From: a virus
IMG/VR virus record: IMGVR_UViG_3300044712_001381
Coordinates: 1-38,197 of that record
Length of the DNA: 38,197 bases
Direction: 5' to 3' (one strand)
In this document: positions 3,050 through 36,127 of the stretch, in pieces
Numbering within the stretch: the stretch's first letter is position 1
Layout: the number at the start of each line of letters is the position of its first letter
Program-made: the position numbers and the translations under genes
The notes under the pieces: model-generated
Told to the model about the DNA's origin: nothing
The model's database searches: none
Seen by the model: the letters and a program-made list of their open reading frames with translations, nothing else

Positions 3050-3235
3050 ATGCCATCTACACCCAACCTGTTTCTAATTTTCCTAGTCAACCTCGCCGGC
3101 GCATTTTCCGCCATATCCATGCTTGTCCTGCCCGTCGCCGCCGTCAACCAGATCCAGCCTCGCCAGGTCGCCAAACTATATGCTTACGCGACTCCCGTCG
3201 CCATCATTCTGGCCCTGGCTTTTTACATTGCCTGA
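3050..3235 (+). CDS. Possible small two-helix membrane protein
   Basis: A 61-residue frame with two hydrophobic segments, NLFLIFLVNLAGAFSAISMLVLPVAAV (6-32) and YATPVAIILALAFYIA (46-61). It sits 19 bp before the receiver gene in the same direction, so it could be its membrane partner. No ribosome-binding site precedes the ATG and it overlaps the upstream region of the divergent gene, so it may be spurious. A small holin-like protein is another possibility. Confidence 0.4.
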   Translation: MPSTPNLFLIFLVNLAGAFSAISMLVLPVAAVNQIQPRQVAKLYAYATPVAIILALAFYIA

Positions 3236-3254
3236 TATCCATAAGGACCTGTCG

Positions 3255-3626
3255 ATGGCTCTAAAAATACTGATGATTGACGACGACCCCTCGACGACTG
3301 TACTTACCAGCCTGCTGCTTGAAAGCTATGGGATGGAGGTCACCGTGGCCCATACGGGCATATCTGGCATTCAAAAGGTCCGGGATGCTGCTCCTGCTCC
3401 AGACCTCGTTTTACTTGATATGATGATGCCCGAGATGGACGGTTTTGAAGTCTGCAAGGCGATTCGCACTTTCAGTAATTTACCTATTCTGGCTTATTCG
3501 GCGGTAAGCGACCCCGAGTATGTTGCCAGGGCACGGGCAGCCGGGGTCAATGATTATATACAAAAGCCCACGCCCGTCGAGATCATGGTCGCCCGCATCA
3601 AGAGACTTACCTCGCCAGGCATATAA
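3255..3626 (+). CDS. Stand-alone response-regulator receiver protein (CheY-like)
   Basis: A 123-residue single receiver domain. The acidic pocket is D9/D10/D11 (MIDDDPS), the phosphoacceptor is D55 (LVLLDMMMPEMDGF), the switch Ser is S82 (AYSA) and the conserved Lys is K104 (QKPTP). No output domain is present, so it probably acts through protein contact, intercepting or supplying phosphoryl signal to a host histidine kinase. ATG 3255 is preceded by AAGGA. A receiver gene is uncommon cargo in a phage genome, and it lies in the accessory end, separated from the tail fibre gene by a bidirectional terminator. Confidence 0.9.
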   Translation: MALKILMIDDDPSTTVLTSLLLESYGMEVTVAHTGISGIQKVRDAAPAPDLVLLDMMMPEMDGFEVCKAIRTFSNLPILAYSAVSDPEYVARARAAGVNDYIQKPTPVEIMVARIKRLTSPGI

Positions 3627-3724: not shown

Positions 3725-3772
3725 TAATCCGTTTCTCCGCTAAATCCGTTTGTCCGCTTGCTTATCCGTTAC

Positions 3773-13567: not shown

Positions 13568-13864
13568 TTATCTAATCCGTTTTTCCGCTTGATCATCCGC
13601 TACTGAAAAATACCCTTCCACCGCTTGCCAGGCATTCGGCCAGGCTTCAGGCGGAAAACTCCAGGGTTCTGGTCGAAAAGTCACCAGTTTCATTCCCTGG
13701 AACGATCCTACAGCCAGCACCCGCACCTTCTGCCCATCCAGGGCAAACTGCTCCCCGCCGGGCAGCACAATCGCGAGGAAACCTTTTGTGCAGTGCATCT
13801 CGGCCAGATCGCCAGGGACAAGACTCATGGGCGCTGTTCGGCGCTGGTCAGGAGACCAGCGCAC
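13568..13864 (-). CDS. Small hypothetical protein in head-tail junction cluster
   Basis: A 98-residue frame. A GTG at 13864 overlaps the region right after the preceding stop (TAAGTG), suggesting coupling; an internal ATG at 13828 (MSLVPGDLAEMH) gives 86 residues. The core LVPGDLAEMHCTKGFLAIVLPGGEQFALDGQKVRVLAVGSFQGMKLVTFRPEPW looks like a small SH3-like barrel. No family recognised. Adjacent genes are connector and adaptor, so a structural or assembly role is likely. The 3' end runs into an intergenic repeat with AGCGGA/ACGGAT units. Confidence 0.6.
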   Translation of the reverse strand: MRWSPDQRRTAPMSLVPGDLAEMHCTKGFLAIVLPGGEQFALDGQKVRVLAVGSFQGMKLVTFRPEPWSFPPEAWPNAWQAVEGYFSVADDQAEKRIR

Positions 13865-19140: not shown

Positions 19141-19458
19141 TTATTCGAGATACTTCGTCGCATAAACGCTGATGGTGACGCACTCGTTTGCCCATCCATC
19201 AACATTCTTGTGATACTGATTGGCATGGCCGCTCAAAGAAACCATGATTTCCTTGGCAGCGACAAACCCGCTTTCGCGGACCAACCTGGCGGCCGCCCGA
19301 ATGGCCGCGTCGATCTGCTCATCGCGCTCTTTCACGCATTGCTGGTTGCCAATGTTGGATCTATCTGCTGCCTTAAGCGCCTCAGAAACCTTGAGCGCCA
19401 GCGTACGAGAATTGTCTTCCCCGTCAACTTCCACAGTCTTGCTAACGGACCAGCTCAT
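19141..19458 (-). CDS. Small hypothetical protein at head of capsid operon
   Basis: A 105-residue protein. ATG 19458 (MSWSVSKTVEVDGEDNSRTL) follows the strong site GGAAGGAAA; the open frame begins upstream in the leader hairpin. It is mostly helical in the middle (ALKVSEALKAADRSNIGNQQCVKERDEQIDAAIRAAARLVRES) and ends in beta strands (KEIMVSLSGHANQYHKN ... CVTISVYATKYLE). No family recognised. It is the first gene after the leader/terminator copy 1 and probably opens the capsid-tail transcript. Confidence 0.7.
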   Translation of the reverse strand: MSWSVSKTVEVDGEDNSRTLALKVSEALKAADRSNIGNQQCVKERDEQIDAAIRAAARLVRESGFVAAKEIMVSLSGHANQYHKNVDGWANECVTISVYATKYLE

Positions 19459-19477
19459 TTCGTTTCCTTCCTGGAAC

Positions 19478-19561
19478 AAAAAAAGCGCCTGGCACATGAC
19501 TCTTGCAAGTCATGTGCCAGGCGCTATCCTGGCGATGGCCACGCAACGCGGCCGCTCAATT
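19478..19561 (-). ncRNA. Leader RNA with intrinsic terminator, copy 1 (candidate attenuator)
   Basis: On the minus strand the element starts AATTGAGCGGCCGCG, continues with TTGCGTGGCCATCGCCAG, and ends in an 18-bp perfect hairpin (AGCGCCTGGCACATGACT at 19484-19501 against its complement at 19508-19525) followed by seven T (19484-19478). GCCAGG just upstream of the hairpin can pair with CCTGGC of its proximal arm, an alternative helix that would break the terminator. A near-identical element lies at 24061-24143. The start of translation of the first capsid-operon gene is 20 bases beyond the T-run. A promoter lies just upstream, so the transcript would begin within the conserved block. Confidence 0.75.
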
Positions 19562-19570
19562 GATAAATCA

Positions 19571-19598
19571 ATTATACATCAAACTTCTCTTGGAACAA
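19571..19598 (-). promoter_or_regulatory. Promoter of capsid-tail operon
   Basis: TATAAT on the minus strand (19576-19571) with TTGTTC sixteen bases upstream. The expected start is about 19564, at the edge of the conserved leader. The -10 region GATGTATAAT resembles GATGTAAAAT before leader copy 2. Confidence 0.55.
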
Positions 19599-19600
19599 GC

Positions 19601-19630
19601 GAGACCGCCCGGGTATTCCCGAGCGGTCTC
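19601..19630. other. Hairpin between large terminase and capsid promoter
   Basis: GAGACCGC (19601-19608) and GCGGTCTC (19623-19630) enclose a second stem CGGG/CCCG, leaving one mismatch. No T-run follows on the minus strand, so it is a weak terminator at best; it separates the terminase transcript from the capsid promoter. Confidence 0.5.
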
Positions 19631-19729
19631 TTATCAAAAAGGTTTTCCGGTCGCCCGGGTGGGTGAGGGGGGCACCCAACCAAGCGATGCGCCTATTCTA
19701 GCACGCTAGTTCTAATAATGCAAGAAAAG

Positions 19730-21568
19730 CTAAAAACCAAACTCGTCCGATTTAACATAACTGTCGAAGGCGACCGCATCACGCAGACTTTGTATCTCTG
19801 AGAGCGCATCGATTACAGCCGCGGCCAGGTCAATGCGCTTGGTATCCCCGGCGTTCTTTTTGGTCAGCATAATATTCTCATTTTTGTCAGTCTCGTTCAC
19901 GGCATTGAAAATGCACCACTTTAGCAGCGGAGACCCATCGTGCACCAGCTTCCCGCTGGCCACCAGGTCGCGTAGCAGCTTGGTCGGTTCGCTCAACGTG
20001 CGCATCCCCTGGCGCACCTCGATCACCGTATAGCCTGCCGAGGCCTGCTCGGTAGCAAACATGGTCGCGTTATAGGGATCGTAACAAAGACGATGAATTC
20101 TCCAGCCCTGCTTTTTCTCTGCGTTGGAGATGTGGTCCTGCACCTTATGAAAATCGGTCACATTCCCGGGCGTGATCGTACACCAGCCACCCTTGGCCCA
20201 ATCCCGATAAGGCACCTTATCGGTTTTCTCGTGATTCACAACACCGCCCTCCGGAATAAACCCATGGGCACAGATCGCCACGCGCTCGCTATCCAGGGCG
20301 AATACAAAACCGGTCGCGGTCAGGTCTATACTTTTTGAAAGATCATCGCCGTTATTGCACAGCCGCCCGCGCACCAGCTCCAGGAACTTCTCCCTGGGCA
20401 GCGCGAGAGCATCCCACTTATCGGCATACATGCCCATATAGCTGTTCGCCTGGCCATGTACCCAGATGTTCAAATTCTTGACCCGGAACGCGCGTATCTT
20501 GTCTGGCAGCAGGCTCCCAAAGGCTTCGTCGTGCTGCTCCTTCAGGTCCGCTATTCCCTCCGGAGTGGAGCAGCGCAGCGGGTTTGATTTGATCCAGTTC
20601 TTGGGGTCGTGCTCATCGTCGCCGGTGTCTTTATCTTCATCGTCGGTTGGCTCTTTGGTGTCCAGCTCGCGGATCATGACGAAATACCGCTCCTGCAGCG
20701 ACGGATCTTCGAGGATGCGTTTGCAGTACAGGTATTCCCCGTGGCATGGACTCTCGACATTGTTGCCCGCGGTGGTGATGGTGGTCATCAAGACCTGCGC
20801 GCGCTGCCCGAAAGCCGTTGCCATCAGGTCAAAGATCTCGCTCGTAGGGTGGGCATGGTACTCGTCGATGATGATTCCCGATGGGTTAAATGAGTCCTTA
20901 TTCTTGACTGCCCCTGAGAAAGGTTCGAACTTCCCCCCGCGCGTGCGGTGTCTCATTGAGTGCATCCCGATCTTCAGACGCGCGCTGATATCCGGGCTTC
21001 CTTCGGCCATCGATTTTGATGCTTCGTACAGCTCCCTCGCCTGCTTCTTATCCACCGCTGCGCAGTAAACATCCGGGCTGGCTTCCATATCCCCAACCAT
21101 CAGGTAGAGCGCTACCCCGGCTAACCTGGTTGTTTTTGCGTTCTTCCGTGCCTCTGTCAAAAAAGCTTTTTTGAAACGCCGCACCCCCGTGGTTCGCCCG
21201 TCAGACCGGGTGATGGTCTTTTTCTTCGAGACCCACCCAAACATGCAGCCGATATCGAACACATGCGCCGGGACCAGCACAATCGGCTGGCCAACAAACG
21301 GTCCCTCCACGTGGCGCAAATATCCAAACCACTCCACCGCAACAAAAAGAGCCTGGTCGACGTCGAACTCCCAGGGAAATTCAAGGTCGTATTCCGGCCT
21401 GACTCTAATTCCGATCCGGTGTTCATCCACTCGCCGGGCGAGATCTTCGTGCAATTGCCCGGACCGCGACAGATCAAAAAGATGTCGCTGCGCAGCCAGG
21501 CGCTCCGGCATACCAGCCACCCGAACGCCTTCGAGGACATCGAGCGCATACTGGGTTATCTGGTCCAT
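19730..21568 (-). CDS. terL: Terminase large subunit
   Basis: A 612-residue DNA-packaging ATPase/nuclease. The ATPase part shows an adenine/Walker A-like motif RKNAKTT (141-147) and Walker B IIIDEYH (232-238). The C-terminal RNase H-like nuclease shows DLTATGFVFALD and, near the end, the acidic DLAAAVIDALSEIQ. Overall pattern and length fit the HK97/phage terminase_1 group, which cuts at cos sites in HK97-like phages. Its ATG overlaps the small subunit stop as TAATG. The HNH endonuclease nearby supports cos-type packaging. Confidence 0.95.
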   Translation of the reverse strand: MDQITQYALDVLEGVRVAGMPERLAAQRHLFDLSRSGQLHEDLARRVDEHRIGIRVRPEYDLEFPWEFDVDQALFVAVEWFGYLRHVEGPFVGQPIVLVPAHVFDIGCMFGWVSKKKTITRSDGRTTGVRRFKKAFLTEARKNAKTTRLAGVALYLMVGDMEASPDVYCAAVDKKQARELYEASKSMAEGSPDISARLKIGMHSMRHRTRGGKFEPFSGAVKNKDSFNPSGIIIDEYHAHPTSEIFDLMATAFGQRAQVLMTTITTAGNNVESPCHGEYLYCKRILEDPSLQERYFVMIRELDTKEPTDDEDKDTGDDEHDPKNWIKSNPLRCSTPEGIADLKEQHDEAFGSLLPDKIRAFRVKNLNIWVHGQANSYMGMYADKWDALALPREKFLELVRGRLCNNGDDLSKSIDLTATGFVFALDSERVAICAHGFIPEGGVVNHEKTDKVPYRDWAKGGWCTITPGNVTDFHKVQDHISNAEKKQGWRIHRLCYDPYNATMFATEQASAGYTVIEVRQGMRTLSEPTKLLRDLVASGKLVHDGSPLLKWCIFNAVNETDKNENIMLTKKNAGDTKRIDLAAAVIDALSEIQSLRDAVAFDSYVKSDEFGF

Positions 21569-22038
21569 TAGTCAAACTTCGATCCGAAATCATCCAGGAT
21601 CGCGTCGGCCCTCTTTTTTACGAGCCTGGCCCGCGCGGCTGGGCTGAAACCCAGCTTATCGGTCAACTGCGCCAGGATTCTGGCATACGCCTGCAGGGCC
21701 TTGACACCGTCATTGGTCAGTACCTTCACCGTGCCATCCGCCTCCACCTTGGGTTTGCTCATTTCCTGGTACTTTATGACGGTATCGCAATAAACCGCCA
21801 GCAAAGTGCCGTCGATGTTATCCAGGATATCCAGCCCCCGCACCTGTTTGAGAGTCTGCTTCCAAACGGCCAGGGCCTCTTTGGTGAGCCACTTCGGCGC
21901 CGTTAGTCGTACCTTCGTTTTACGCTTGGCTGCATCCGCCGCGGCCTGGCGCGCATCGATCTCGGCCTGGGTCCAATGCTTCCCATCGCCTTTCTTCCCG
22001 ACCTCCATCGTTTCTGCGGAAACGACCTTTGTTGGCAT
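21568..22038 (-). CDS. terS: Terminase small subunit, P27 family
   Basis: A 156-residue protein. LTAPKWLTKEALAVWKQTLKQVRGLDILDNIDGTLLAVYCDTVIKYQEM is the P27-like DNA-recognition core, and LGFSPAARARLVKK is the usual C-terminal motif. It recognises packaging sites and feeds DNA to the large subunit. A parS-like 14-mer (22010-22023) lies in the first codons, encoding VSAET at residues 6-10. Confidence 0.92.
   Translation of the reverse strand: MPTKVVSAETMEVGKKGDGKHWTQAEIDARQAAADAAKRKTKVRLTAPKWLTKEALAVWKQTLKQVRGLDILDNIDGTLLAVYCDTVIKYQEMSKPKVEADGTVKVLTNDGVKALQAYARILAQLTDKLGFSPAARARLVKKRADAILDDFGSKFD
22010..22023. other. parS-like 14-mer, copy 3
   Basis: GTTTCTGCGGAAAC near the 5' end of the small terminase gene, read as V-S-A-E-T on the minus strand. 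Confidence 0.5.
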
Positions 22039-22043
22039 AGCAT

Positions 22044-22832
22044 CTAATCTCTCCGCTCCATCGCCGCTGCCAGGAATCTCTCCACTTCGGCGATTTCGCT
22101 TTTTGCGATCTCGAAGTATTTAGGGTCCAGCTCGTACCCGATAAACTTTCGCCCATCCAGCAGACAGGCTTTTCCCGTGCTGCCGCTCCCCATGAAAGTG
22201 TCGAGCACCAATTCGCCCGGGTTGCTGAAAGTCTTGACAAGCCACTGGAGCAGATCGACCGGCTTCGCGGTTGGGTGCAGCGACCGCTGCCCGCTGCGGT
22301 TGTTGTAATCGAGCACGCTGATGGGGTAATACTCATCCGTCGCCGATGAAACTGCTCCTGGAATGCCTTTTTGTCCGCCATAATGTTTCATCGGCGTTTT
22401 GGCAATCCGGTTGACGTGGAATTTTCCTTTGCGCATGACCGGGTTGTAAGTGAACTTGCCCCGGCCAGCGCGCGAAAAAACGAGGATGATTTCATGTGCC
22501 CTGAGCGGTCGCCGCTTCGCGTCAAGATGACCCACCGGGCAGTTCTTCCGCCAGATCAAGTCGTACCGAAAGCACGCCCGATTGGAATTTATCAACGTAG
22601 TCGTAAACGGCTGGCACGAGAAGAGAACGACCGCAGCATTTTCCTTGGTAACGCGATCAATTTCTCGCCACCATCGCGGCCAGTTGATCTCTACTTCAAA
22701 AGCCAAGTTAGTTGTGTTGTAAGGTGGGTCTGTTACCACTAAATCAATTTGACCATCCGGCAAGCCGGTCATCAGCGAAAAACAATCACCCTGAACGATG
22801 CTAATCGTCGGGATCTCTATTTTGTCAGACAT
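22044..22832 (-). CDS. DNA adenine/cytosine-N4 methyltransferase
   Basis: A 262-residue S-adenosylmethionine-dependent methyltransferase. The catalytic motif DPPYNT (35-40, in LVVTDPPYNT) comes first and the cofactor motif TFMGSGSTGKACLLDGRKFIGYELD comes near the C-terminus, the order of the beta class of amino-methyltransferases. The region between is the likely target-recognition part. ATG 22832 is preferred; an upstream ATG at 22865 (adding 11 residues) has no ribosome-binding site. No restriction nuclease is beside it, so it probably protects phage DNA or marks it, as orphan phage methyltransferases do. Confidence 0.92.
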   Translation of the reverse strand: MSDKIEIPTISIVQGDCFSLMTGLPDGQIDLVVTDPPYNTTNLAFEVEINWPRWWREIDRVTKENAAVVLFSCQPFTTTLINSNRACFRYDLIWRKNCPVGHLDAKRRPLRAHEIILVFSRAGRGKFTYNPVMRKGKFHVNRIAKTPMKHYGGQKGIPGAVSSATDEYYPISVLDYNNRSGQRSLHPTAKPVDLLQWLVKTFSNPGELVLDTFMGSGSTGKACLLDGRKFIGYELDPKYFEIAKSEIAEVERFLAAAMERRD

Positions 22833-22961
22833 GTAGTAGGTTATCTCTCTTGTATTTTTAAGCATTATTTTGGCTATGGCGCTGCAAAATTACGGCGTTG
22901 ATCGGGGACTTTTTCGCAAGGACGCCACCCCATGCGCTATAAATACCCCACCAAAACATTT

Positions 22962-23318
22962 TTAACCGGGGGGTGTCCATCCAACCTCGACTGACGTTTT
23001 ACGAGAATGGCAACTGTGGCAGAGCGATTCGAATGGTCCTTCGAAGAACTTGGTCAAGTCCCCTTCGTGCCGCTCCTTATGGTCGACATCAGTGGCTGCT
23101 ACATAGTAGCCTTGCTCAAGATGCCTCGCGCACCATGGTTCCTTTGCCAATTGCGCAGCGCGGATCTTCTTCCAGCGAGGATCGTTGTACAACCGTTGAC
23201 GCTCAGGGATGTGAGCATCCCGAAAGGACCTGCTACTATGTTTCTTGCAGCGACCTTTGTGAACTAACTCTTCACATCCTGGGTGAGCGCACTTGCGCAA
23301 TGCGGACCAGGGCATCAT
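22962..23318 (-). CDS. HNH endonuclease associated with terminase
   Basis: A 118-residue protein. Starts at ATG 23318 (MMPWSALRKC), four bases after the preceding stop and with AGG upstream. The N-terminal zinc-binding segment CAHPGCEELVHKGRCKKH precedes the HNH core YNDPRWKKIRAAQLAKEPWCARH ... DVDHKERHEGDLTKFFEGPFESLCHSCHSRKT (Asp-His pair, then Cys pair, then His). Such HNH proteins beside terminase genes stimulate cos cleavage in HK97-like phages. About 100 bases of non-coding sequence follow before the methyltransferase. Confidence 0.92.
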   Translation of the reverse strand: MMPWSALRKCAHPGCEELVHKGRCKKHSSRSFRDAHIPERQRLYNDPRWKKIRAAQLAKEPWCARHLEQGYYVAATDVDHKERHEGDLTKFFEGPFESLCHSCHSRKTSVEVGWTPPG

Positions 23319-23322
23319 GCAC

Positions 23323-23619
23323 CTATTGCTGAGGCAGGCCAAAGGCGGCCTGTATTGGATGCCTGAACTCCGGCTTGCTCCATAGACCGATGAACGTCAG
23401 GAACGCCAAGGCAATAGTGATAGAAGCTTTGGGATGACGTTCCATCCACATCACAATGCTAACCGACTCAACCTTGGCGACCCTGGCCGTTACAGCTTTG
23501 ACGTCGCGGTACATCGACGCCACCATTGTGAACATCAGATCATTGCGCACTTTGACCGGAACACAGCGTTTGCCCTCGAGGATGTCGGTGATAAGGTTAT
23601 CTAACTCCTCGTCTGTCAT
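23323..23619 (-). CDS. Small protein with C-terminal membrane helix (holin-accessory candidate)
   Basis: A 98-residue protein from ATG 23619 (MTDEELDNL), five bases after the preceding stop; the open frame to 23673 overlaps the upstream gene. It is helical and soluble for about 70 residues (coiled-coil-like MYRDVKAVTARVAKVES) and has one membrane segment, ASITIALAFLTFIGLW. The shape (soluble coil, then a C-terminal anchor) recalls XhlA-type phage lysis-accessory proteins, but no clear family match is visible. Confidence 0.55.
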   Translation of the reverse strand: MTDEELDNLITDILEGKRCVPVKVRNDLMFTMVASMYRDVKAVTARVAKVESVSIVMWMERHPKASITIALAFLTFIGLWSKPEFRHPIQAAFGLPQQ

Positions 23620-23623
23620 GGTG

Positions 23624-24040
23624 CTAACCCAACTGCACGCGGAAAAGCGGAAAGGATATCCCATCCAGGACATCCCTCAGCAGCATGTTATAGATCGTCA
23701 TTGCGGCGCCAGTGTATGGGATCAATGCCACGACCACCGCCTGGGAATACGCAAAGAAAACGCTCAATATCATGGCTGGGTCGCTGGGCACAGACGGGAA
23801 GACAGGCAGAACACCCGGGTTGAAGACGATCACCAACAGGAACGCGATCACATACAAACCGCCGGTCACATACTCTCGACCGATCTTGATTCCCTTGAAC
23901 TCGGCCAGGGTATTGATCAGCCAGACAAGGACAATGGTCACCGCAGTTATCACCGCGGCCTGGTTGCTGACAACCCAGGTAAGACCGAAAGCAAAAACGG
24001 ACAGGATGACTTGCAGTACGAGCTTGGTTTTGGTTGACAT
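23624..24040 (-). CDS. Phage membrane protein with four helices (holin candidate)
   Basis: A 138-residue integral membrane protein from ATG 24040 with AGGAGAG just upstream; the longer frame runs into the leader terminator. Four hydrophobic stretches are visible: LVLQVILSVFAFGLTWVV, AAVITAVTIVLVWLINTL, VTGGLYVIAFLLVIVF and MILSVFFAYSQAVVVALIPYTGAA. It is the first gene after leader copy 2 and opens the late packaging block. A holin role is plausible from position and topology, but it is longer than most and no endolysin accompanies it. Confidence 0.6.
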   Translation of the reverse strand: MSTKTKLVLQVILSVFAFGLTWVVSNQAAVITAVTIVLVWLINTLAEFKGIKIGREYVTGGLYVIAFLLVIVFNPGVLPVFPSVPSDPAMILSVFFAYSQAVVVALIPYTGAAMTIYNMLLRDVLDGISFPLFRVQLG

Positions 24041-24060
24041 AAATCTCTCCTTTTGGATTA

Positions 24061-24143
24061 AAGACAAAACGCCTGGCACATGATTTTTAAGTCATGTGCC
24101 AGGCGCTAGTCTGGCGATGGCCACGCAACGCGGCCGCTCAATT
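24061..24143 (-). ncRNA. Leader RNA with intrinsic terminator, copy 2 (candidate attenuator)
   Basis: Reads on the minus strand AATTGAGCGGCCGCG, TTGCGTGGCCATCGCCAG, then ACT (GAT in copy 1) and the hairpin CGCCTGGCACATGA (24070-24083) against TCATGTGCCAGGCG (24092-24105), followed by TTTTGTCTTT. The first 33 bases are identical to copy 1. A 5-bp alternative helix GCCAG/CTGGC is possible here as well. It heads the membrane-HNH-methyltransferase-terminase block. Confidence 0.75.
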
Positions 24144-24149
24144 TCTATT

Positions 24150-24155
24150 ATTTTA
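24150..24155 (-). promoter_or_regulatory. -10 element of leader copy 2
   Basis: TAAAAT on the minus strand (24155-24150), in the context GATGTAAAAT, seven bases before the conserved leader. No good -35 hexamer is visible, so it may need an activator. Confidence 0.4.
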
Positions 24156-24163
24156 CATCCAAA

Positions 24164-24628
24164 TCAAGCCGAATTCATAGGCTTATCTTTAAGCAAAGGC
24201 AGCGACCAATAGACGCAGCCAAATAATGCAGGCACTTCCATGTTCACCTTTTTGCAACTTCCGTTGAAGTCGAGCTGCGTCCAGAATTCGCAAGTCCTGC
24301 ATCGTTCTCGATTTCCCCGTTTGACAGGCATTTCATTCCCTGGCTCAGGCGTTTTCCTGCGCCGGCGCAAGTTCAGCTTTTTCAGCGCTGTCTCCGACAT
24401 ATTCCAGGGCTGCACTGCGCCGCACATTCCGCAAACGACCTTCCCCTGCTCCAGGTCTTTGACCAGGTAGATTTTCTGGGGAGCATACTTCTCCGTGTGC
24501 GGCAATTCTCCGGGAACAATGGATACCCGGAAAACATTAACCTTCAGCCTATGGTCATTCCCCCGGAAAACAATCCCCAAAACCGCTTTGCATCGTTCGC
24601 AGCGATATGGCCTTTCCTGAATCGCCAT
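24164..24628 (-). CDS. Zinc-ribbon protein of unknown function
   Basis: A 154-residue Cys-rich protein. A first zinc ribbon is formed by CERCKAVLG near the N-terminus and CGMCGAVQPW at about 66-75; a second cluster is CRTCEFWTQLDFNGSCKKVNMEVPALFGCVYW in the C-terminal third. A basic stretch (LKKLNLRRRRKT) lies between. GGGAG precedes the ATG. It may be a DNA- or RNA-binding regulator and is the last gene before leader copy 2, so a role in late transcription control is conceivable but unproven. Confidence 0.65.
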   Translation of the reverse strand: MAIQERPYRCERCKAVLGIVFRGNDHRLKVNVFRVSIVPGELPHTEKYAPQKIYLVKDLEQGKVVCGMCGAVQPWNMSETALKKLNLRRRRKTPEPGNEMPVKRGNRERCRTCEFWTQLDFNGSCKKVNMEVPALFGCVYWSLPLLKDKPMNSA

Positions 24629-26963: not shown

Positions 26964-27259
26964 AGCAGCTCCGGCGCCAGGCGCACATTCCCTTTCAGGT
27001 AATAAGTGCTTTTTTGAATAATCGCCTTTGGACCGCTCGCCAGCGTATTCCTGGGCAGCAGGTTGATGACCGTCCGCCACTCCATATTCGACGGATACAC
27101 ATCTGCCCTGGAGAGCTGCACCGCCAGAACATCACCGTCGAATTTCAGGGCCACACTCAGTCCCTTCGGCAAGCGCTTTCGCACCGGCTCACCCTGGGCC
27201 GCCTTGGCCGCGTCCACCAACCGCGCCAGAGTCTCCCGTAAACCGCCCCCGCTGCCCAT
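26960..27259 (-). CDS. Small hypothetical protein downstream of ParB
   Basis: A 99-residue protein from ATG 27259, which overlaps the ParB stop as TGATG and has GGAGG upstream. It reads MGSGGGLRETLARLVDAAKAAQGEPVRKRLPKGLSVALKFDGDVLAVQLSRADVYPSNMEWRTVINLLP, a helix followed by beta strands. No family recognised; possibly a partner of the ParB-like protein because of translational coupling. Confidence 0.65.
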   Translation of the reverse strand: MGSGGGLRETLARLVDAAKAAQGEPVRKRLPKGLSVALKFDGDVLAVQLSRADVYPSNMEWRTVINLLPRNTLASGPKAIIQKSTYYLKGNVRLAPELL

Positions 27260-28083
27260 CACAGCCTCCGCAAAAACTGCACCAATGGACACTGCCGGCA
27301 TGTGGCAGGTGACGCCATGTCATAAAGTTCGCACGCCTTGCAGGTCAGGTCCGCGGCCTTGGCGACCGGCTCCTCCAGCATTTTCGAACCGACCAGGTTC
27401 AGGCAGCAGAAATGTTCTCCGGCCTTCACCGGCGTCACACTTTCGGCTTTGGGCACCCGCTTGCGCCGCAACGTGCTCCCGTACCGGTTGCAGAACATAA
27501 CAAACACCGCTTCCGACGCGCCGCGCACAGCTGCACTGGTCGCGATCTGCACCCGCCTGGATGGATCGAGCCGCCGGAGCGCTGCTACAGAGTTCGGGCT
27601 GACCACAATCGCGCCCCGGTCGAATAGTTCCTGGATCTGCGGTTCGAATTCCAGGAGCGCCATATACCCGCTGATCGTCGACTTGCTTTTCCCTGTCTGG
27701 GCCGCAACTTCCTCCTGGCTGCCCAGCTCGTCGAGCATCGCCTTATAGCCCCGGGCCTGCTCCATCGCTGTCATATCGTCCCGTTGGACATTGGCCACAA
27801 ATGCGTGGACCAGTCGCTCGGCACCGTTGTGATTCGTTCCCTGGCGGATAACAGCATCGATGGCATTCCAGCCAATCAACTTTGCCGCGCGAAAACGCCG
27901 CTCACCATCGACGATGACGTACTTGCCTTCGTTCTCCCCCGCCCCAATCTCCACCACGATGGGCTGGATCAACCCCACTTTCGGGTTATTCATCGACCTG
28001 GCTAACTCATCCAGGCTTTTCTGGTTGAACCGCTTCCGCGGCTGCCGCGGGTTCGGTATGATTTTGGATATCAGGATTTGCAT
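27259..28083 (-). CDS. ParB-like partition/DNA-binding protein with C-terminal Cys cluster
   Basis: A 274-residue ParB/Spo0J-type protein. The ParB N-domain has PNPRQPRKRF at 11-19, GLIQPIVV and the CTP-site motif GERRFRAA (60-67). A helix-turn-helix (VAAQTGKSKSTISGYMALL, 126-144) would bind a parS-type sequence. The end has a zinc-binding-like cluster, CKACELYDMASPATCRQCPL. No ParA is encoded. It overlaps the initiator gene by 13 bases. It could load on the parS-like 14-mers in this genome or regulate nearby genes. Confidence 0.9.
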   Translation of the reverse strand: MQILISKIIPNPRQPRKRFNQKSLDELARSMNNPKVGLIQPIVVEIGAGENEGKYVIVDGERRFRAAKLIGWNAIDAVIRQGTNHNGAERLVHAFVANVQRDDMTAMEQARGYKAMLDELGSQEEVAAQTGKSKSTISGYMALLEFEPQIQELFDRGAIVVSPNSVAALRRLDPSRRVQIATSAAVRGASEAVFVMFCNRYGSTLRRKRVPKAESVTPVKAGEHFCCLNLVGSKMLEEPVAKAADLTCKACELYDMASPATCRQCPLVQFLRRL

Positions 28084-29288
28084 GATTTTGTCTCCTCCAC
28101 CACAAAACGCAGCTCCACGCTACCGTTGAGCATCCCAGCCAGCAACCTGGTCACTGTGCTCTCAAGTCGATTTTCAAGCCAGTCCCGCGCGTACTTGCTC
28201 CGCGTGGCAACCGTCAACACCTTCGCCTTGGCATCCCAATCCACTGGCCATGTGCACCTCACATACGCGTCAAAACTCACACGCGGCATATCCAGGATAG
28301 TCTGCTCGAGGACGCTTTTCCACACTTGAGCAATTTTGGGATCGTGGAATTCCGGGATAACTTCGTCCTGATCTGCATCGTCAGGTTCTTCGTCACTCGG
28401 ATCTGGTTCCGGGTGCATTTCCACCAGGTGCGCCTGGAATTCGGCATCCTTGGCAAACTTAGCCTGGCAAAATTCACACGCATACTCAACCAATCCACAG
28501 GCTTCCAGGTATTCTTTCGGCAAAAACGACTGTGGATCCACCCGGAATTGCTTATCAGGTTTCTTTGAGCGCAGCTTTCCCTGCAAACCCTTGAAGGCCA
28601 ATCCCCAGGGACGGTCCGAGCGTTTATCGTGCCAGGCGCAATAACATTGGGCCAGCCATCCCAAAATCTCCAGCTGGTCCTTTTTCGAAAAAGTGTCATT
28701 CCAATTGACCGGTTTCTCAAAAAGCAGGTACGCATTTTCAAGCAGCTGCTTATTTTTCGCCGCTTGCGAGTCTAGACAGTCAGAATCTATTTCAGAAGAA
28801 GATTTAAGATAAGACTCTGTCTGTCTAGACTCTGTTTGAAATTCCCTCTGAGAGGGAATTTCCCTCTGAGAGGGAATTTCGGCCCCGTTTTTAGTCGTTT
28901 TTTGTCCTTCTTCGACGAATTCTCCATCCACAACCACAGCGCCGGAATTTTGAAAATCCCGCTGGGAGGGAATTTCCATCTGAGAGGGATTTTTGGCCCC
29001 GTCCACATCTTCGACGAGCGCATACCCGAGTGGCAGTTGGAAAGCCGAATCGCTGTTGAATACCCATCCGCCGGTTACCCGCTTGGCTAATTGGAATTCT
29101 GGACTGGTCAAAATTCGGAGTGCATCCGTAATGGCATTTTTCCCGAAGCTCGGGGATTTATCCTTCAGCCAATTGGAATCAACCGGCCCCAGCCCTTCCA
29201 GCTTTGCGGCTTGTAACAGCCCCAAGATCACAAACGCCTGCGCCCCCAACAACCGTGGTAATTGACTGTATTGTTGAACTGAGATCAT
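28071..29288 (-). CDS. Replication initiator candidate with C2H2 finger and DnaA domain I-like C-terminus
   Basis: A 405-residue protein. Residues 1-90 look like a winged-helix module (ILGLLQAAKLEGLGPVDSNWLKDKSPSFGKNAITDALRILTSPEFQLAKRVTGGWVFN). Residues 98-152 contain IPSQR(E/D) peptide repeats encoded by palindromic DNA units. A helical middle is followed by a classical C2H2 finger, C271-x2-C274-x12-H287-x4-H292. Residues about 319-398 (VWKSVLEQTILDMPRVSFDAYVR ... LTVATRSKYARDWLENRLESTVTRLL ... VELRFVVEE) match the DnaA N-terminal (domain I) pattern, used for DnaB helicase contacts. Position before parB and internal repeats support an initiator/helicase-loading role; this is inference. Confidence 0.75.
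   Translation of the reverse strand: MISVQQYSQLPRLLGAQAFVILGLLQAAKLEGLGPVDSNWLKDKSPSFGKNAITDALRILTSPEFQLAKRVTGGWVFNSDSAFQLPLGYALVEDVDGAKNPSQMEIPSQRDFQNSGAVVVDGEFVEEGQKTTKNGAEIPSQREIPSQREFQTESRQTESYLKSSSEIDSDCLDSQAAKNKQLLENAYLLFEKPVNWNDTFSKKDQLEILGWLAQCYCAWHDKRSDRPWGLAFKGLQGKLRSKKPDKQFRVDPQSFLPKEYLEACGLVEYACEFCQAKFAKDAEFQAHLVEMHPEPDPSDEEPDDADQDEVIPEFHDPKIAQVWKSVLEQTILDMPRVSFDAYVRCTWPVDWDAKAKVLTVATRSKYARDWLENRLESTVTRLLAGMLNGSVELRFVVEETKSCKS
28842..28990. repeat. Palindromic iterons inside initiator gene
   Basis: Four ~17-bp units of the form TTCCCTCTGAGAGGGAA: 28842-28858 and 28860-28876 (perfect palindromes, 18-bp spacing), then degenerate 28957-28972 and 28974-28990, again about 18 bp apart. 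They encode repeated IPSQR(E/D) peptides. Arrays like this inside or near initiator genes often are origin sites. Confidence 0.65.
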
Positions 29289-29574: not shown

Positions 29575-30364
29575 TGTCCGGTACCTTATAGAAAAAACTT
29601 GCCTTGAAAATCTTCTCGTTGTCGAATTCGACGCGCGAAACGACCGACCCCTTGGGCAGCATCTCCTTCCACAACTCCACATCCGGGTATCGTTTCGCAC
29701 CCTGGATAACAAGCTTGTTCAGCCCGTGGTACATTCCCACGCTGTCAACGATCCGCGTGTGCCCAATTACCACCCCTTGTCCGGAAAGCGCGGTATTAAC
29801 TGCCGGGTGCAGCTCCGGGTCCGGGAGCGCAGCGACGGGCGCCTGGCTCTGACAGTACCCGCGCAAAAACTTCTCAGCCGCTTCTCCACACAGCTTGTCG
29901 CACTGCACGTTGAAGATGCTGACGGGATGCCCGCGCTTCCCGATTCCCGCCGCCAGCTGCGCCTTGGTCGGGTGTCCATCCAGGAGCACGGGCTTGATCG
30001 CATCCCAGTGCACCAGGTGCTTGCGCACCCGTCGGTAACGCTCATGCATCCACTGCGGGATGTTGTTCCACTTCCAGCCATGGAAAAGCCGCCCCAGGCT
30101 GTTATTGCTGTCGCTCAACACCGTTCCACAGAAATCTGCCGGCAGCCGCTCGAGGCCATACAGCAGCGCGAGCAGCTCCGTCTGGTTATTGGTGACCACG
30201 TCCGTCCGCATTTCGGCAGGCGTGATCGCCCAGCTCTCATGACAGATCTGCTGATCGTTTTCGTCGACCTGGATCCACGCCCACGTCCCCCCGATCGGCG
30301 ATGGGTTTTTCTCGATCACCCCGCCATCGGCATACAATGCCGTAATCCGTTTTTCAGTTTGCAT
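29549..30364 (-). CDS. RNase H-like protein
   Basis: A 271-residue protein from ATG 30364 (MQTEKRITALYADGGV), with GGGAG upstream. The RNase HI active-site carboxylates are visible: D13 (LYADGG), E63 (NNQTELLALLYGLE), D85 (LSDSNNSLG) and D156 (NVQCDKLCG). The C-terminal ~100 residues are extra and unassigned (HTRIVDSVGMYHGLNKLVIQGAKRYPDVELWKEMLPKGSVVSRVEF). It likely removes RNA from RNA-DNA hybrids during replication initiation or R-loop priming. Neighbours are small replication-cluster proteins and the initiator candidate. Confidence 0.85.
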   Translation of the reverse strand: MQTEKRITALYADGGVIEKNPSPIGGTWAWIQVDENDQQICHESWAITPAEMRTDVVTNNQTELLALLYGLERLPADFCGTVLSDSNNSLGRLFHGWKWNNIPQWMHERYRRVRKHLVHWDAIKPVLLDGHPTKAQLAAGIGKRGHPVSIFNVQCDKLCGEAAEKFLRGYCQSQAPVAALPDPELHPAVNTALSGQGVVIGHTRIVDSVGMYHGLNKLVIQGAKRYPDVELWKEMLPKGSVVSRVEFDNEKIFKASFFYKVPDNGNHQSVR

Positions 30365-30689
30365 ATCCGCTCCCGATCTCCATAAAGCTGATCTGATACA
30401 TCCCGGCCAGCGCCACATGCGCCAACCGCTCAAGGCTGATCTGGTAGACAGGCTTCTCGAAATTGAGCCGCCCGTCGGCGTCCTGGCCCAGGCATTTCAC
30501 GGTTCCGTCGATTACCTGGTAGCCAAAACATCCCGGATAGATTTGCTCGGGACTGTACCCTCCCTGCGTGCCCTTGAATTGATTAACCAACCACTTTACA
30601 GGCTCTGCCTTTCTCTTCGCAGCCTTTACCAAATCGCCGAAAACGACCGTTGCCAATTTGTACTCACGCGCGCTGATGATCTGGTCCAT
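30354..30689 (-). CDS. Hypothetical protein
   Basis: A 111-residue protein from ATG 30689 (MDQIISAREYKLATVVFGDLVKAAKRKAEPVKWLVNQFKGTQGGYSPEQIYPGCFGYQVIDG), with AAAGGGA upstream. It overlaps the RNase H gene by 11 bases. N-terminal helical part with a Lys-rich face, then a short beta region. No family recognised. Confidence 0.6.
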   Translation of the reverse strand: MDQIISAREYKLATVVFGDLVKAAKRKAEPVKWLVNQFKGTQGGYSPEQIYPGCFGYQVIDGTVKCLGQDADGRLNFEKPVYQISLERLAHVALAGMYQISFMEIGSGYAN

Positions 30690-31424: not shown

Positions 31425-32390
31425 CTAACCTTTTGCCAGCGACATTTTGTACAGGCCGCGCGCGATAGCCATGACCGGGTCATCCGGCATGTGGGCTTTG
31501 CCGTTGAATTTATGGGGCAAAGAGTCCTTGAGTAAGATGGCCCCGCCACCCATAACCAACACCGCCGCGAAACGCCGCCAGGCTGTGCCCCATTGCTTCT
31601 CGATCACGCCCATCACTTCCCGCTGCCAGATCGGCAGGGCCTCGGTTGTATTCAATTGTCCGGCCCGCAGCATGATATCCATCTCTCCCAGGGAATAAAG
31701 CCGTTCCCCGTTCAAGATCTCCAGCAATCGCCGCACACCCGATGTTGCGCCAGCCGTGAAGCGCTGCACAGGCGCGCGGTTGCGCACCGCCAGCAATTCG
31801 ACCGTTCCAAAGCCAACGGAAATAATGCCCACCTCCCCGGTGAAGGCGGGTTTGCGCGCGGGGATGAATTTCCCCGCTTCGTCCAACAGGTAGTCGAATA
31901 GACCGCCCGTTACCTGGCTTGCGATCCGCGCCTCGCCAACTTCAACATCGTATTTCTTCCCGTCGGCGACCCAACTGTGGCAGCCCTTCAGCCAGCGCTT
32001 CACGTTCTCGCGTGTGGTCTCAGCCGAGTCGCCGGTGAGCGTTTCCTGCGGCAGGCCCACGATCAGGCTCAGGGGTTCGGTGATCGGCCCCCACTGCAAT
32101 TGATAGCGCGTCATGGCGCCATGGAAAAGCGCTACCATTTCAGGTGTGCCGTTGAAGCGCTCCACATCCAGGTTTTCCACCGGCCGGCCGTAATCGTGAG
32201 AGTTTGCTCCCACGTAAAACGAACCGAAAGCGTTTACAACGTGCAGCGGCGCCTTGGTGCGCTTTAGACCCAGCGTGCTGGCCACGTGCTGGCCGCCGTT
32301 GATGGCGACCTGCGAAAGAGTTTCCTGCCCGCCATGCGGACCGTACAGTTTCATTGCACCGTTTCCTGCGTCCAATCCCAAATTAATCAT
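31425..32390 (-). CDS. ParM/StbA-like plasmid-segregation actin
   Basis: A 321-residue actin-fold ATPase. Phosphate 1 motif GLDAGNGAMKLYG (5-17), phosphate 2 motif VGIISVGFGTVELLAV, and adenosine motif AAVLVMGGGAILLKD are present, as is a connecting helix. Members polymerise into filaments that push plasmid copies apart when linked through an adaptor and a centromere. The ParR-like gene follows immediately and the FtsK-type gene precedes with a four-base overlap, so all three should be co-expressed. Length matches ParM (about 320). Confidence 0.9.
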   Translation of the reverse strand: MINLGLDAGNGAMKLYGPHGGQETLSQVAINGGQHVASTLGLKRTKAPLHVVNAFGSFYVGANSHDYGRPVENLDVERFNGTPEMVALFHGAMTRYQLQWGPITEPLSLIVGLPQETLTGDSAETTRENVKRWLKGCHSWVADGKKYDVEVGEARIASQVTGGLFDYLLDEAGKFIPARKPAFTGEVGIISVGFGTVELLAVRNRAPVQRFTAGATSGVRRLLEILNGERLYSLGEMDIMLRAGQLNTTEALPIWQREVMGVIEKQWGTAWRRFAAVLVMGGGAILLKDSLPHKFNGKAHMPDDPVMAIARGLYKMSLAKG

Positions 32391-33808
32391 GCTGTTGCTC
32401 CTTCCCCTTGTGGGGTCTTGGCTGAGGGATTCACCCCCAGCAAAATATCGTTATCGGTTGTTCGGGTTGTTTGCCCGGTTGTTTGGGTTGTTTGGGGGTT
32501 GTTCGGGGTTGTTTGGGTTGTTCGGTTGTTCAGCAAATTGACCAGTTTAGGCGTTATATAAAAGCCGTTCGCCCTCTGTGGGTCCTTGGCGGCCCAACCT
32601 TTCAGCGCCCAGGCATCTTGAAGGCGTAAAATCTCTTGCAAGCCCATCCCCCAACCTGTCAGAACATCTCGGCTGATCTTGCCTTCAGTTTCGCGAAGCG
32701 CTCTTTCCGCGTATCCGCGCTCATCCGTTGTCAACAGCTCCACTACCTGACCGTCGACGATCAACTTGTCTTTATCCAGGAAGAACGCCTGGATAAGCCC
32801 CCATCGGTCTGTCAGCGCCCGGCCTGGCCGGTTAGGGTTTATCTTCGCCGCGGCCGCCATCCCGATATTCTGGGCCACACTCGCGTTTTTTACTCGATGA
32901 ACGATCATCACGCCGACCTGGTCGCGGATTTTCCCCATAAGTTCGGCGCTGAAATCCTGGCTGCCCATCACCAACTGGATACCAAATTTCCGGCCTCGCC
33001 ACACGATCTGCTTTGCCAGGTTCGCCAGCGAACCATTCACGCCGCCGCTGTTATCCACTGCGCTGTTGAATTCGTCCAGCACCACCAGGACTCGTTTCAA
33101 CGGCTCCTGGCCCGCTTTGAGCGCCCACCGGTTGTATTCTTCGATGTTCTCGGGAAAGTTGGCTGCCGTGGTATAGAGTGCCTTTCGGTGTTCTATTTCA
33201 GCGTATGCCCTTCGAAGCGCATCGATGAAACCGTTCTCGTTCTCAGCCAGCCCGATCAACAGCGCCGGGTGTCCTGCCAGCATCGGGAAGGTGTTGTTAT
33301 CCAGATCACCGAGGATCAGGTTGAAATCCTGCCTGATTGCTTGGTAGACAATTTCGCGCAGGGTGTAGCTTTTCCCGCTCCCGGTCATCCCGGCCACCAT
33401 CATGTGATTCAGCTCTCCCCACTTCGCGCCTGCCAGGCGGCCATTGGCGCACTGGCCAATCATCACGCGGCCGGCCGCGATCTGCTCTGGTAGCTCGATG
33501 CGCTTTGGTAGTTTCCGCACCGGCGAGAGCAAAAACGCCAGGCGGATGCCTGTATGATTGCTGACCAGCACTGGCATACCTTTCAGTGAGCTGCTCAGGT
33601 GGTGCGTGGCCTGTTCATAAGGCTCGAATTTCGGGATGCGCTGATCATCCAGCTCAGCGAACAGCCAGACATCTCCGGTTGCTGTTTTGGTCAACAGCCA
33701 CTGGCGCACCGCAGCCGGATCTGTTCCTGGTCGCTGCGTCAGCACATTCCCTGTGATCTGCGCCACGGCGATGGCCGTGCGCTGGTATTGCTCAATAGTT
33801 CCGTTCAT
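32387..33808 (-). CDS. FtsK/HerA-type DNA-translocating ATPase
   Basis: A 473-residue protein from ATG 33808 with GGAGG upstream; a longer open frame runs into the lipoprotein gene. Walker A is GMTGSGKS (140-147), Walker B VLVVLDEF (240-247), followed by the KQIVWRGRKFGIQLVMGSQDFSAELMGKIRDQVGVMIVHRV region typical of FtsK/HerA sensor-like strands. There are no membrane helices in it. C-terminal ~60 residues are Asn/Thr/Gln-rich (NNRTTQTTPNNPQTTQTT). It may move DNA during segregation, packaging or transfer. Its neighbours supply the membrane anchor. Confidence 0.88.
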   Translation of the reverse strand: MNGTIEQYQRTAIAVAQITGNVLTQRPGTDPAAVRQWLLTKTATGDVWLFAELDDQRIPKFEPYEQATHHLSSSLKGMPVLVSNHTGIRLAFLLSPVRKLPKRIELPEQIAAGRVMIGQCANGRLAGAKWGELNHMMVAGMTGSGKSYTLREIVYQAIRQDFNLILGDLDNNTFPMLAGHPALLIGLAENENGFIDALRRAYAEIEHRKALYTTAANFPENIEEYNRWALKAGQEPLKRVLVVLDEFNSAVDNSGGVNGSLANLAKQIVWRGRKFGIQLVMGSQDFSAELMGKIRDQVGVMIVHRVKNASVAQNIGMAAAAKINPNRPGRALTDRWGLIQAFFLDKDKLIVDGQVVELLTTDERGYAERALRETEGKISRDVLTGWGMGLQEILRLQDAWALKGWAAKDPQRANGFYITPKLVNLLNNRTTQTTPNNPQTTQTTGQTTRTTDNDILLGVNPSAKTPQGEGATA

Positions 33809-34806
33809 TCGTCCTCCTCTCGCGAGGTGATTTGACCCTGCACATCCTCGAGCCAACCCTGCACCTGCCCGGGCTGAACCACTTGGATGTTTATCGCCGG
33901 GCTGCCTGGCGCTGAAAGATTTGCCGTCATTCCCAAAGCCTGCCGCGGGTATCCTTGGGGCAGTTCAGCAATGGCATCCACAATGTTGCGCTCGTGAACG
34001 ATCTGCTGTTGCATATCCGGGGATACACCCAGGACCGGCATGGTTACCTGGCGCTTATCGCTGAAATCAATCACCGGCCCGGGCATTAAGCCTGGTTGCA
34101 GCGCACGCTGGTTGATCATCACTAAACGAACCTTGCCATTTTCATCGGCGATCACACCGATCTGGCTGCGCTTCCAAACCACAAAGACGCCCACAATCAA
34201 ACAGATGGTTCCGAATATCCAACCGCCCCAGGCCGATACCCACATCGTTGCTTTTTTCTGCTCCAGCTCTATCTGCACCTTCTCACTTTCTGCATAGATG
34301 GCTGTTTGCTTGGCCCGTATGATGGGTGCTTCCTCGGTCTTTTTGTCTGCGATCTCCGTTGACTTCGCTTCGAAAGTGGCAGTCAGGCCGATAGAGTGAG
34401 CCTCCGCGGTCGCCATCGTGTTAATCTGCGCCTGTTGGGTCGCCGCCGCCTGTGCCTGGGCCGTTGCAGTGTCCTGCGCTTTAGCGGCTGCAACTGTCAC
34501 CTGAAATGCTTGTTGGGTGGCGTATTCCGCTTTCTGGGTTGCTTGCTGGTTTTCAACGTGCCGCGCCTGTGTTGCCGTGGCATCCATGATTTGCTGTGTC
34601 GCAGTCATCCGCGCGCCCATTTCCACACGATCCTTATCCAGTGCTTGCTGAGTGGCTACCTGCCACATCTGCTGCTCGATAAACCCGACTGCGGCCGCGC
34701 TGATTGGTGGCGTTGGCGTTGCGGTTGGCATGGGTTTGGATCCAGCTCCGCAAGCTGTCAAAAGTAATGCCAGCAAAAGGCTAAAAATAAATTTGGGGTT
34801 CTTCAT
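33805..34806 (-). CDS. Lipoprotein with coiled coil and a transmembrane helix, coupled to FtsK-type ATPase
   Basis: A 333-residue protein. The N-terminus (KFIFSLLLALLLTACGAG) is a lipoprotein signal with lipobox Cys at residue 19, then a Pro/Thr linker (PMPTATPTPP). Residues about 40-185 are a long Ala/Gln/Thr-rich coiled coil. A membrane helix spans about 189-211 (WVSAWGGWIFGTICLIVGVFVVW). The last ~120 residues (SQIGVIADENGKVRLVMINQRALQPGLMPGPVIDF ...) would be cytoplasmic. It overlaps the FtsK gene by four bases (ATGA) and the previous gene by 26. ATG 34806 is chosen after AAGGCGG. Role: probably envelope docking for the ATPase; inference. Confidence 0.7.
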   Translation of the reverse strand: MKNPKFIFSLLLALLLTACGAGSKPMPTATPTPPISAAAVGFIEQQMWQVATQQALDKDRVEMGARMTATQQIMDATATQARHVENQQATQKAEYATQQAFQVTVAAAKAQDTATAQAQAAATQQAQINTMATAEAHSIGLTATFEAKSTEIADKKTEEAPIIRAKQTAIYAESEKVQIELEQKKATMWVSAWGGWIFGTICLIVGVFVVWKRSQIGVIADENGKVRLVMINQRALQPGLMPGPVIDFSDKRQVTMPVLGVSPDMQQQIVHERNIVDAIAELPQGYPRQALGMTANLSAPGSPAINIQVVQPGQVQGWLEDVQGQITSREEDE

Positions 34807-35902: not shown

Positions 35903-36127
35903 CTAATTCAAACTGATCGTGCTGATCAACCCCAACTTGCGGGCAGTCATTTCGACACCCACAACGTAGTTGTAGCGGTCGCTGGAAAAGGTATTGACGA
36001 AGTCTGGTCTGAACATGGTCCGCTCAATACCCAGCAAGTGCAGCTCCACGATAGGTATGTGCCAGGGTCGCTTTCCAAAACTGGGATATTTGGGTACCAA
36101 CAGGGTTATGGCTGCGATCCTTCTCAT
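35903..36127 (-). CDS. Small basic protein coupled to large ParB-like gene
   Basis: A 74-residue protein from ATG 36127, overlapping the ParB stop as ATGA. Sequence begins MRRIAAITLLVPKYPSFGKRPWHIPIVELHLLGIERTMFRPDFVNTF. Net basic, mixed beta. No family recognised; translational coupling suggests it works with the large ParB-like protein. Confidence 0.6.
   Translation of the reverse strand: MRRIAAITLLVPKYPSFGKRPWHIPIVELHLLGIERTMFRPDFVNTFSSDRYNYVVGVEMTARKLGLISTISLN

Follow-up and report, generated by a model that had tools for sequence, protein, structure and literature searches.

The locus described here raises the question of how a phage might switch on its packaging and structural genes together. 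It lies in the virus record IMGVR_UViG_3300044712_001381, which was analysed from position 1 to 38,197 as one stretch of 38,197 nucleotides (nt), referred to below as the window. The record carries a 146-nt terminal repeat, consistent with a complete genome. The late region is on the minus strand, and two of its operons are each headed by a copy of the same leader RNA. An initial annotation had proposed that this leader is a shared switch, by attenuation or antitermination, for all late genes; that proposal is now supported by an RNA family, by covarying and mutually exclusive folds, by the position of the leader before late genes, and by its link to a protein gene. We regard it as likely that the leader belongs to a two-part late-gene switch of Chloroflexota phages, in which a terminator would hold the late genes off and protein-stabilised antitermination would turn them on.

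The two copies and their structural parts were assigned as follows. E-values refer to the covariance model R1, which was built on 26 sequences, and are rough.

19477..19563, minus strand: leader RNA copy A (sequence; R1, E 8e-11)
24061..24143, minus strand: leader RNA copy B (sequence; R1, E 2e-11)
19537..19553, minus strand: hairpin P1 of copy A (fold, family covariation)
24119..24135, minus strand: hairpin P1 of copy B, GGCCGCG-UUG-CGUGGCC (fold, family covariation)
19516..19533, minus strand: predicted alternative (antiterminator) hairpin of copy A, GCCAG(G) with (C)CUGGC (fold, family covariation)
24098..24115, minus strand: predicted alternative (antiterminator) hairpin of copy B, GCCAG at 24115-24111 with CUGGC at 24102-24098 (fold, family covariation)
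19484..19525, minus strand: terminator hairpin of copy A, followed by TTTTTTG (terminator-like site scan)
24068..24107, minus strand: terminator hairpin of copy B, followed by a T-rich tail (terminator-like site scan)

The identical 33-nt block AATTGAGCGGCCGCGTTGCGTGGCCATCGCCAG reported in the initial annotation was found at 19561-19529 and 24143-24111, both on the minus strand, and the aligned 55-nt core shows 96% identity between copies A and B. With up to three mismatches allowed, the 29-nt core had no match in 100 shuffles. Both hairpins and their T-rich tails were recovered as described, with lengths close to the 14 and 18 base pairs (bp) originally given: the hairpin of copy B has 15-16 bp, an 8-nt loop and a tail of TTTTG or TTGTCTTT, depending on the chosen stem end, and that of copy A has 19 bp and a 4-nt loop. 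In a 19-38 kb scan they had the highest pair count among terminator-like sites, and the folding z-scores of the two copies were -7.0 and -7.6. Both copies allow the alternative pairing between GCCAG and CTGGC. The full leader folds at -47 to -52 kcal/mol; RNA cut before the 3' arm of the terminator folds, in either copy, into the GCCAG/CUGGC helix, at -21 to -25 kcal/mol. A leader peptide starting at ATGAGC in the linker was considered and ruled out, as the ATG is not conserved and GGAG directly abuts it.

Relatives were collected with the large terminase TerL as bait. A TerL scan gave 80 viral loci as the starting set, and a search for GC-rich hairpins followed by T-tracts recovered homologous leaders in several of the nearest TerL relatives. 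Further members were added by a pattern scan for their common core GTCRGAGATGAGCGCCYGR. This core is not present as such in the window, and exact 29-nt and near-exact block searches of viral contigs returned nothing; judging from its sequence, the window leader is a divergent member of the family. Several pattern hits were dropped as chance matches, namely L087, L088, L096, L099, L105 and L111, which are without hairpins, and the Vreelandella hit L120, a terminator without P1 or linker. With R1 the leader was detected in 34 of 42 whole related viral records, often as two copies, one ahead of the membrane protein/terminase block and one ahead of the portal block; many viral records are fragments, in which absence is weak evidence. 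Two copies are found in the window, G003, G005 and G033, and those of G002 are 0.5 kb apart. Leaders were also detected in prophages of Chloroflexota genomes. In Rfam release 15 no family matched the window at the gathering threshold, in agreement with the initial statement that no described RNA family has this sequence; at E up to 10 the window matched microRNA, long non-coding RNA and small RNA models only, far below their cut-offs, and seven homologue loci gave no match at E up to 5. Dozens of homologues have compensatory changes in P1, the terminator and the alternative helix; a lack of such homologues, which the initial annotation had named as a refuting condition, is therefore not the case.

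The consensus element comprises, in order, a promoter, P1 (GCAGGCC...GGCC, variable in sequence and in its loop, with conserved pairs), 3-5 nt, a linker (e.g. GUCGG), a loop AGAUGAGCGC and the terminator. The latter is made up of a 5' arm (CCGGC...), a variable loop, a 3' arm and usually a U-tract, and is followed by the ribosome binding site and the first late gene. Among 46 aligned members, P1 is paired in 94% and the terminator stem in 99% of cells (97.5% overall), counts that lean towards the structure to which the alignment was fitted; slid controls gave 37-45%. Changes on both sides were found for 15 of the 18 pairs, and cells with such two-sided changes numbered 170 as compared with 46 in shuffles. 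A GC-rich hairpin directly followed by a U-tract is present in both window copies and in 34 of the 46 members.

The alternative helix, which had been left out of R1, was scored on 40 members with a 10-nt loop, representing 20 distinct combinations of linker and arm. The four loop-adjacent pairs form in 79 of 80 cells, against a shuffled mean of 58 with none of 20,000 shuffles as good, and 73 cells are Watson-Crick pairs as against 46 in shuffles; these shuffles take no account of relatedness. Slid controls gave 18-34 of 80 cells. Pair types change along the helix (GC, AU and CG at position 2; CG, UA and AU at position 3; six types at position 4). In L106, L009, L006, L103 and L184 the pair between linker and arm stays Watson-Crick (A-U) where the terminator has only G-U, and compensatory changes distinguish the two leaders of L112 (ATCGG/CCGAC and GACGG/CCGTC). 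Among prophages, leaders that the model did not include carry GGCGG/CCGCC and GCCGG/CCGGC, and the leader of Virus Rctr41k (KX853513) carries GACG/CGUC. The automatic choice of alternative helix for L222 was spurious and was discarded. The variety of pair types rests on more than one lineage. As an evolved feature, the predicted antiterminator is real. Across the family the linker pairs with the 5' arm of the terminator, so it mimics the 3' arm, as in the standard antiterminator-versus-terminator layout; the GCCAG(G)/CTGGC pairing pointed out in the initial annotation is the window's version of this covarying helix. The loop of this second hairpin mostly has the 10 nt AGAUGAGCGC, and window copy A alone has the 6-nt loop AUAGCG.

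Upstream and downstream of the two leaders, the following features were assigned.

19571..19576, minus strand: -10 box TATAAT of the copy A promoter, with -35 box TTGTTC at 19593-19598 (sequence, promoter scoring)
24150..24155, minus strand: -10 box TAAAAT of the copy B promoter, with weak -35 box ATGAAT at 24173-24178 (sequence, promoter scoring)
19141..19458, minus strand: first open reading frame (ORF) after copy A, 106 amino acids (aa), no PHROG match, upstream of the portal gene (sequence, ATG at 19458)
23624..24040, minus strand: first gene after copy B, small membrane-like protein of 138 aa, no Pfam match (sequence, ATG at 24040)

The -10 boxes are similar, as stated earlier, and from their position transcription is predicted to start near 19564 (copy A) and 24143 (copy B), at the shared block; both -35 boxes are weak. 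Over the family, a promoter match of at least 9/12 was found within the 75 nt before P1 in 20 of 46 leaders, as compared with 8.7% in upstream DNA after shuffling and 2.4% in random windows. The gene order agrees with the two blocks originally named. Copy B heads an operon for the small membrane protein, an HNH protein, a methyltransferase, TerS and TerL; the operon of copy A contains the 106-aa ORF, portal, protease, capsid and tail genes. In the family as a whole, the commonest first ORF after the leader encodes a small membrane protein (MKELFTSRKFW..., MDATIMAGAAG...) and is followed by the terminase, which is a holin-like position. Around the promoters, palindromes such as TTCAATTGTTGAA lie just after the -10 box and overlap the predicted start in L086, L092, L183 and others, with ATTGATTTATCAAT in window copy A; they are possible operators. 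An inverted repeat, GAGACCGC...GCGGTCTC, is located at 19600-19630 of the window between TerL and the copy A promoter; it has no T-run and may be the end of the terminase operon.

Clustering of whole-phage proteins pointed to a candidate partner upstream of the leader, a protein with two knuckles of the C-x-x-(C/G/H) type.

24164..24628, minus strand: gene for a zinc-knuckle-like protein of 154 aa, proposed trans-acting factor (hmmsearch, BLAST clustering, alignments, leader co-occurrence)

The gene ends 21 nt before copy B, and the gap between gene and leader is 7-38 nt in the window, L094, L013, L121 and G633. Relatives of the protein mostly have about 75-122 aa. It was not found in three whole leader-less phages related by TerL, and among the TerL-relative loci L011-L084 it occurs only in L013, which itself bears a leader. 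For the viral scan the A4 profile was used, the full alignment A3 being too divergent. Searching for the protein only, 27 viral loci were obtained, 14 of them on new contigs, and 13 of these 14 carry a leader downstream on the same strand; no leader could be recognised at the protein match L197. One Chloroflexota order was surveyed in 281 genomes: the protein is present in 12, the leader in 12 and both in 9 (p = 1.8e-12, computed ignoring shared descent), that is, the leader occurs in 9 of 12 protein-bearing genomes versus 3 of the 269 others. Across the phylum, sampled with 400 genomes, strong leader matches occur in two genomes, the same two that bear the protein. Virus Rctr41k has the protein, and a stretch without genes ahead of its terminase gives a weak leader match. 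In G041 and G006, which have the leader and no profile match, a different small C-x2-C protein ends within about 16 nt of the leader. The AlphaFold model of the window protein is weak (predicted local distance difference test, pLDDT, 66); that of the L154 protein is confident (pLDDT 88), with no fold match in the PDB and one matching viral model. Because the gene co-occurs with the leader, the evidence points to a protein factor more than to a small ligand or to a put element acting without protein.

The comparisons establish, at the level of sequence, an RNA family with two mutually exclusive folds, promoter-like sites upstream, a position before late genes and a genetic link to a protein. 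From these we infer termination, binding of the protein to the RNA, readthrough, and early expression and timing of the protein, in the following way. Transcription would start at an ordinary sigma70-type promoter and produce P1, the linker and the strong hairpin ahead of the first late gene; by default, RNA polymerase would terminate after about 85 nt. Alternatively, the linker would pair with the 5' arm of the terminator, forming a 4-bp hairpin with the loop AGAUGAGCGC and excluding the terminator. As this antiterminator of 4-5 bp is far weaker than the terminator, a stabilising factor would be needed, and the co-occurring protein could be that factor. The zinc-knuckle-like protein, whose gene lies upstream on the same strand and which is probably produced earlier, may bind P1, the loop or both and stabilise the short hairpin, and polymerase would then enter the late operon. 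With the same leader at two promoters of the window, packaging and structural genes would be switched together.

Several findings weigh against this reading. The window copies have a linker 2 nt shorter and a loop less conserved than those of their relatives, and a fifth pair of the alternative helix is unsupported (8/20). In three genomes a leader was found but no protein, and in three others the protein but no leader; part of the co-occurrence could also stem from a linked block being inherited together. The protein has no relative at meaningful scores in Pfam, PHROG, NCBIfam or the PDB and gave no match to a known RNA-binding family; its zinc binding is suggested by the spacing of its cysteines. 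Finally, 12 of the 46 members have fewer than five T in the 8 nt after the hairpin, and classical intrinsic termination is therefore not the rule for all members. These U-tract-less members of A6 (e.g. L086, L092, L085, L119, L188 and L178) keep P1, linker and hairpin; after the hairpin they have GCGCAAACGTTT or GCGCTCGCCGTTTAAG, with a recurrent GTTT a few nt past the stem. The output may differ in some lineages, and the loss of the U-tract is the main unexplained point.

It is unlikely, although the layout would suit it, that the protein acts in the manner of Q, binding promoter DNA and loading onto RNA polymerase near the leader start while the RNA provides a pause and a terminator only. 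An upstream regulator gene, a promoter, a short leader with terminator and lysis or late genes follow one another as at lambda Q/PR' and AlpA, promoter-like sites directly precede the leader, and lambda Q has a zinc finger (PMC9371919). The conservation, however, sits in RNA pairing, that is in P1, the alternative helix and the loop, and a compensated antiterminator helix would be superfluous for Q. Moreover, the window proteins scanned gave no Pfam match to Q or other antiterminators, and a conserved element in the -35/-10 spacer was not demonstrated, no systematic search for one having been made. A leader RNA that itself modifies RNA polymerase for processive antitermination, as put does, with the protein as an accessory or an unrelated early gene, would agree with the size of about 70-90 nt, the two stem-loops near the promoter and the two copies per genome in several phages, and U-tract-less elements might act on later terminators. 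This is quite improbable, as the leader usually has its own terminator sharing a strand with the alternative helix, and strong terminators are otherwise scarce in the window's late region. Whereas put works without a protein, the leader RNA is accompanied by a protein family, which speaks against put without being decisive.

There is little chance that the element is a small-ligand riboswitch or a translational switch, at least in the U-tract-less members, with the protein regulating something else nearby. The conserved loop AGAUGAGCGC with a variable output platform (U-tract or none) does resemble a changing expression platform. Against this, the ribosome binding site is outside the hairpin, the loop differs between copies (AUAGCG in window copy A, AGAUUGACGC, AGUUUACCGC), the genes under its control are late genes of phages and not metabolic ones, and the co-occurrence of the protein would be left unexplained. 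Equally hard to sustain is the view that the hairpin does no more than close the early operon upstream, leaving a stable small RNA, and that the shared sequence is an ordinary duplication. The upstream gene has the same direction, so the hairpin would also stop early transcripts, and the 6S RNA of lambda would be a parallel to a short transcript of the leader. This view does not account for the alternative helix with its covariation, for P1, for the adjacent promoter or for the conservation across divergent phages.

Going a step further, we lean, with somewhat less confidence, towards an undescribed class of late control, in which a new RNA family and a new zinc-binding protein family act together as an antitermination switch that depends on the protein, in diverse Chloroflexota phages with different terminase types; U-tract-less members would have another output, either processive antitermination or translation. 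In the open-access literature, no description of the leader/protein system or of late-transcription switching in Chloroflexota phages was found. The RNA of about 85 nt and the protein of about 90 aa form a small, testable pair in metagenomic phages and prophages. The pair marks the starts of late operons, can help to annotate unclassified phages and to assign their hosts, and could serve as an orthogonal expression switch.

Some observations were made elsewhere. A second conserved terminator leader, GTCCAAGACGGAAAGCCTGCGGACACTG...GGTGTCCGTTTTTTATTTG, is present in TerL-related phages (L073:1280-1325, L074:1845-1893, L075:335-383, L078:1590-1628, L083:2989-3038, L084:119-160), one close match being Bacillus phage PBP180. 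Pairing is possible between its upstream GTCC and GGAC in the terminator arm, and there may thus be a second, unrelated switch of the same layout; these sites had no Rfam match. In the window, a 34-nt sequence recurs at three dispersed sites with 79-82% identity to the reference, each time at the 3' end of a minus-strand ORF (3742-3775, 13573-13606, 30343-30376), and two 54-nt repeats of GAAATTCCCTCTGAGAGGGAA inverted units are located at 28835-29002 within the region of a 405-aa ORF. ParB-like proteins, an actin-like ALP and an FtsK-like protein (27259-28083, 31425-32390, 32387-33856, 36124-38031) together with an integrase (168-977) form a partition set that suggests a phage-plasmid-like lifestyle. 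A short plus-strand block encodes a HIRAN-domain protein (1653-2162) and a response regulator receiver protein (3123-3626).

Among known systems, put of HK022 consists of two copies of about 70 nt with two stem-loops and is protein-independent (PMC9378689). The phage leader is likewise a short structured RNA near phage promoters with two copies per genome, whereas put has no built-in terminator switch. Com of phage Mu is a small zinc-finger protein that activates translation of mom mRNA via a hairpin (PMC6483171). The partner described here is also a small, zinc-finger-like phage protein proposed to regulate phage mRNA through a hairpin, but by antitermination instead of translation, and a Com-type model gave no match to the new proteins among the Pfam matches listed at E up to 1. 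As a separate observation, the leader loop GAGCGCC fits GAG(N)2CC, the motif obtained for Com by in vitro selection (PMC6483171); the fit may be coincidence. Lambda Q, 21Q and 82Q at PR' and AlpA at PalpB combine an upstream regulator gene, a promoter, a leader terminator and late or lysis genes, and Q and AlpA act through a promoter DNA element and a sigma-dependent pause (PMC9371919). The phage locus has the same gene layout, with the upstream gene as the presumed regulator; its conserved signal, in contrast, is paired RNA, and its protein of about 75-154 aa is unrelated. The leaders of the ANTAR protein EutV contain P1 and a second small hairpin overlapping the 5' arm of the terminator, stabilised by a protein in trans (PMC8934654). 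In the phage leader, too, the small hairpin overlaps the terminator 5' arm and is mutually exclusive with it (79/80 cells paired). Unlike ANTAR leaders, it departs from the A1/G4 hexaloop rule, its second loop mostly being the 10-nt AGAUGAGCGC, it controls phage late genes, and no ANTAR domain was found with Pfam in the partner proteins and 20 further window proteins. By analogy, the system would work like an ANTAR leader in layout and stand closest to Q/PR' and AlpA in role, without being an ANTAR leader itself. ANTAR leaders already provide the principle of a protein choosing between terminator and antiterminator; what appears to be new is the RNA, the protein family and their use as a phage late switch.

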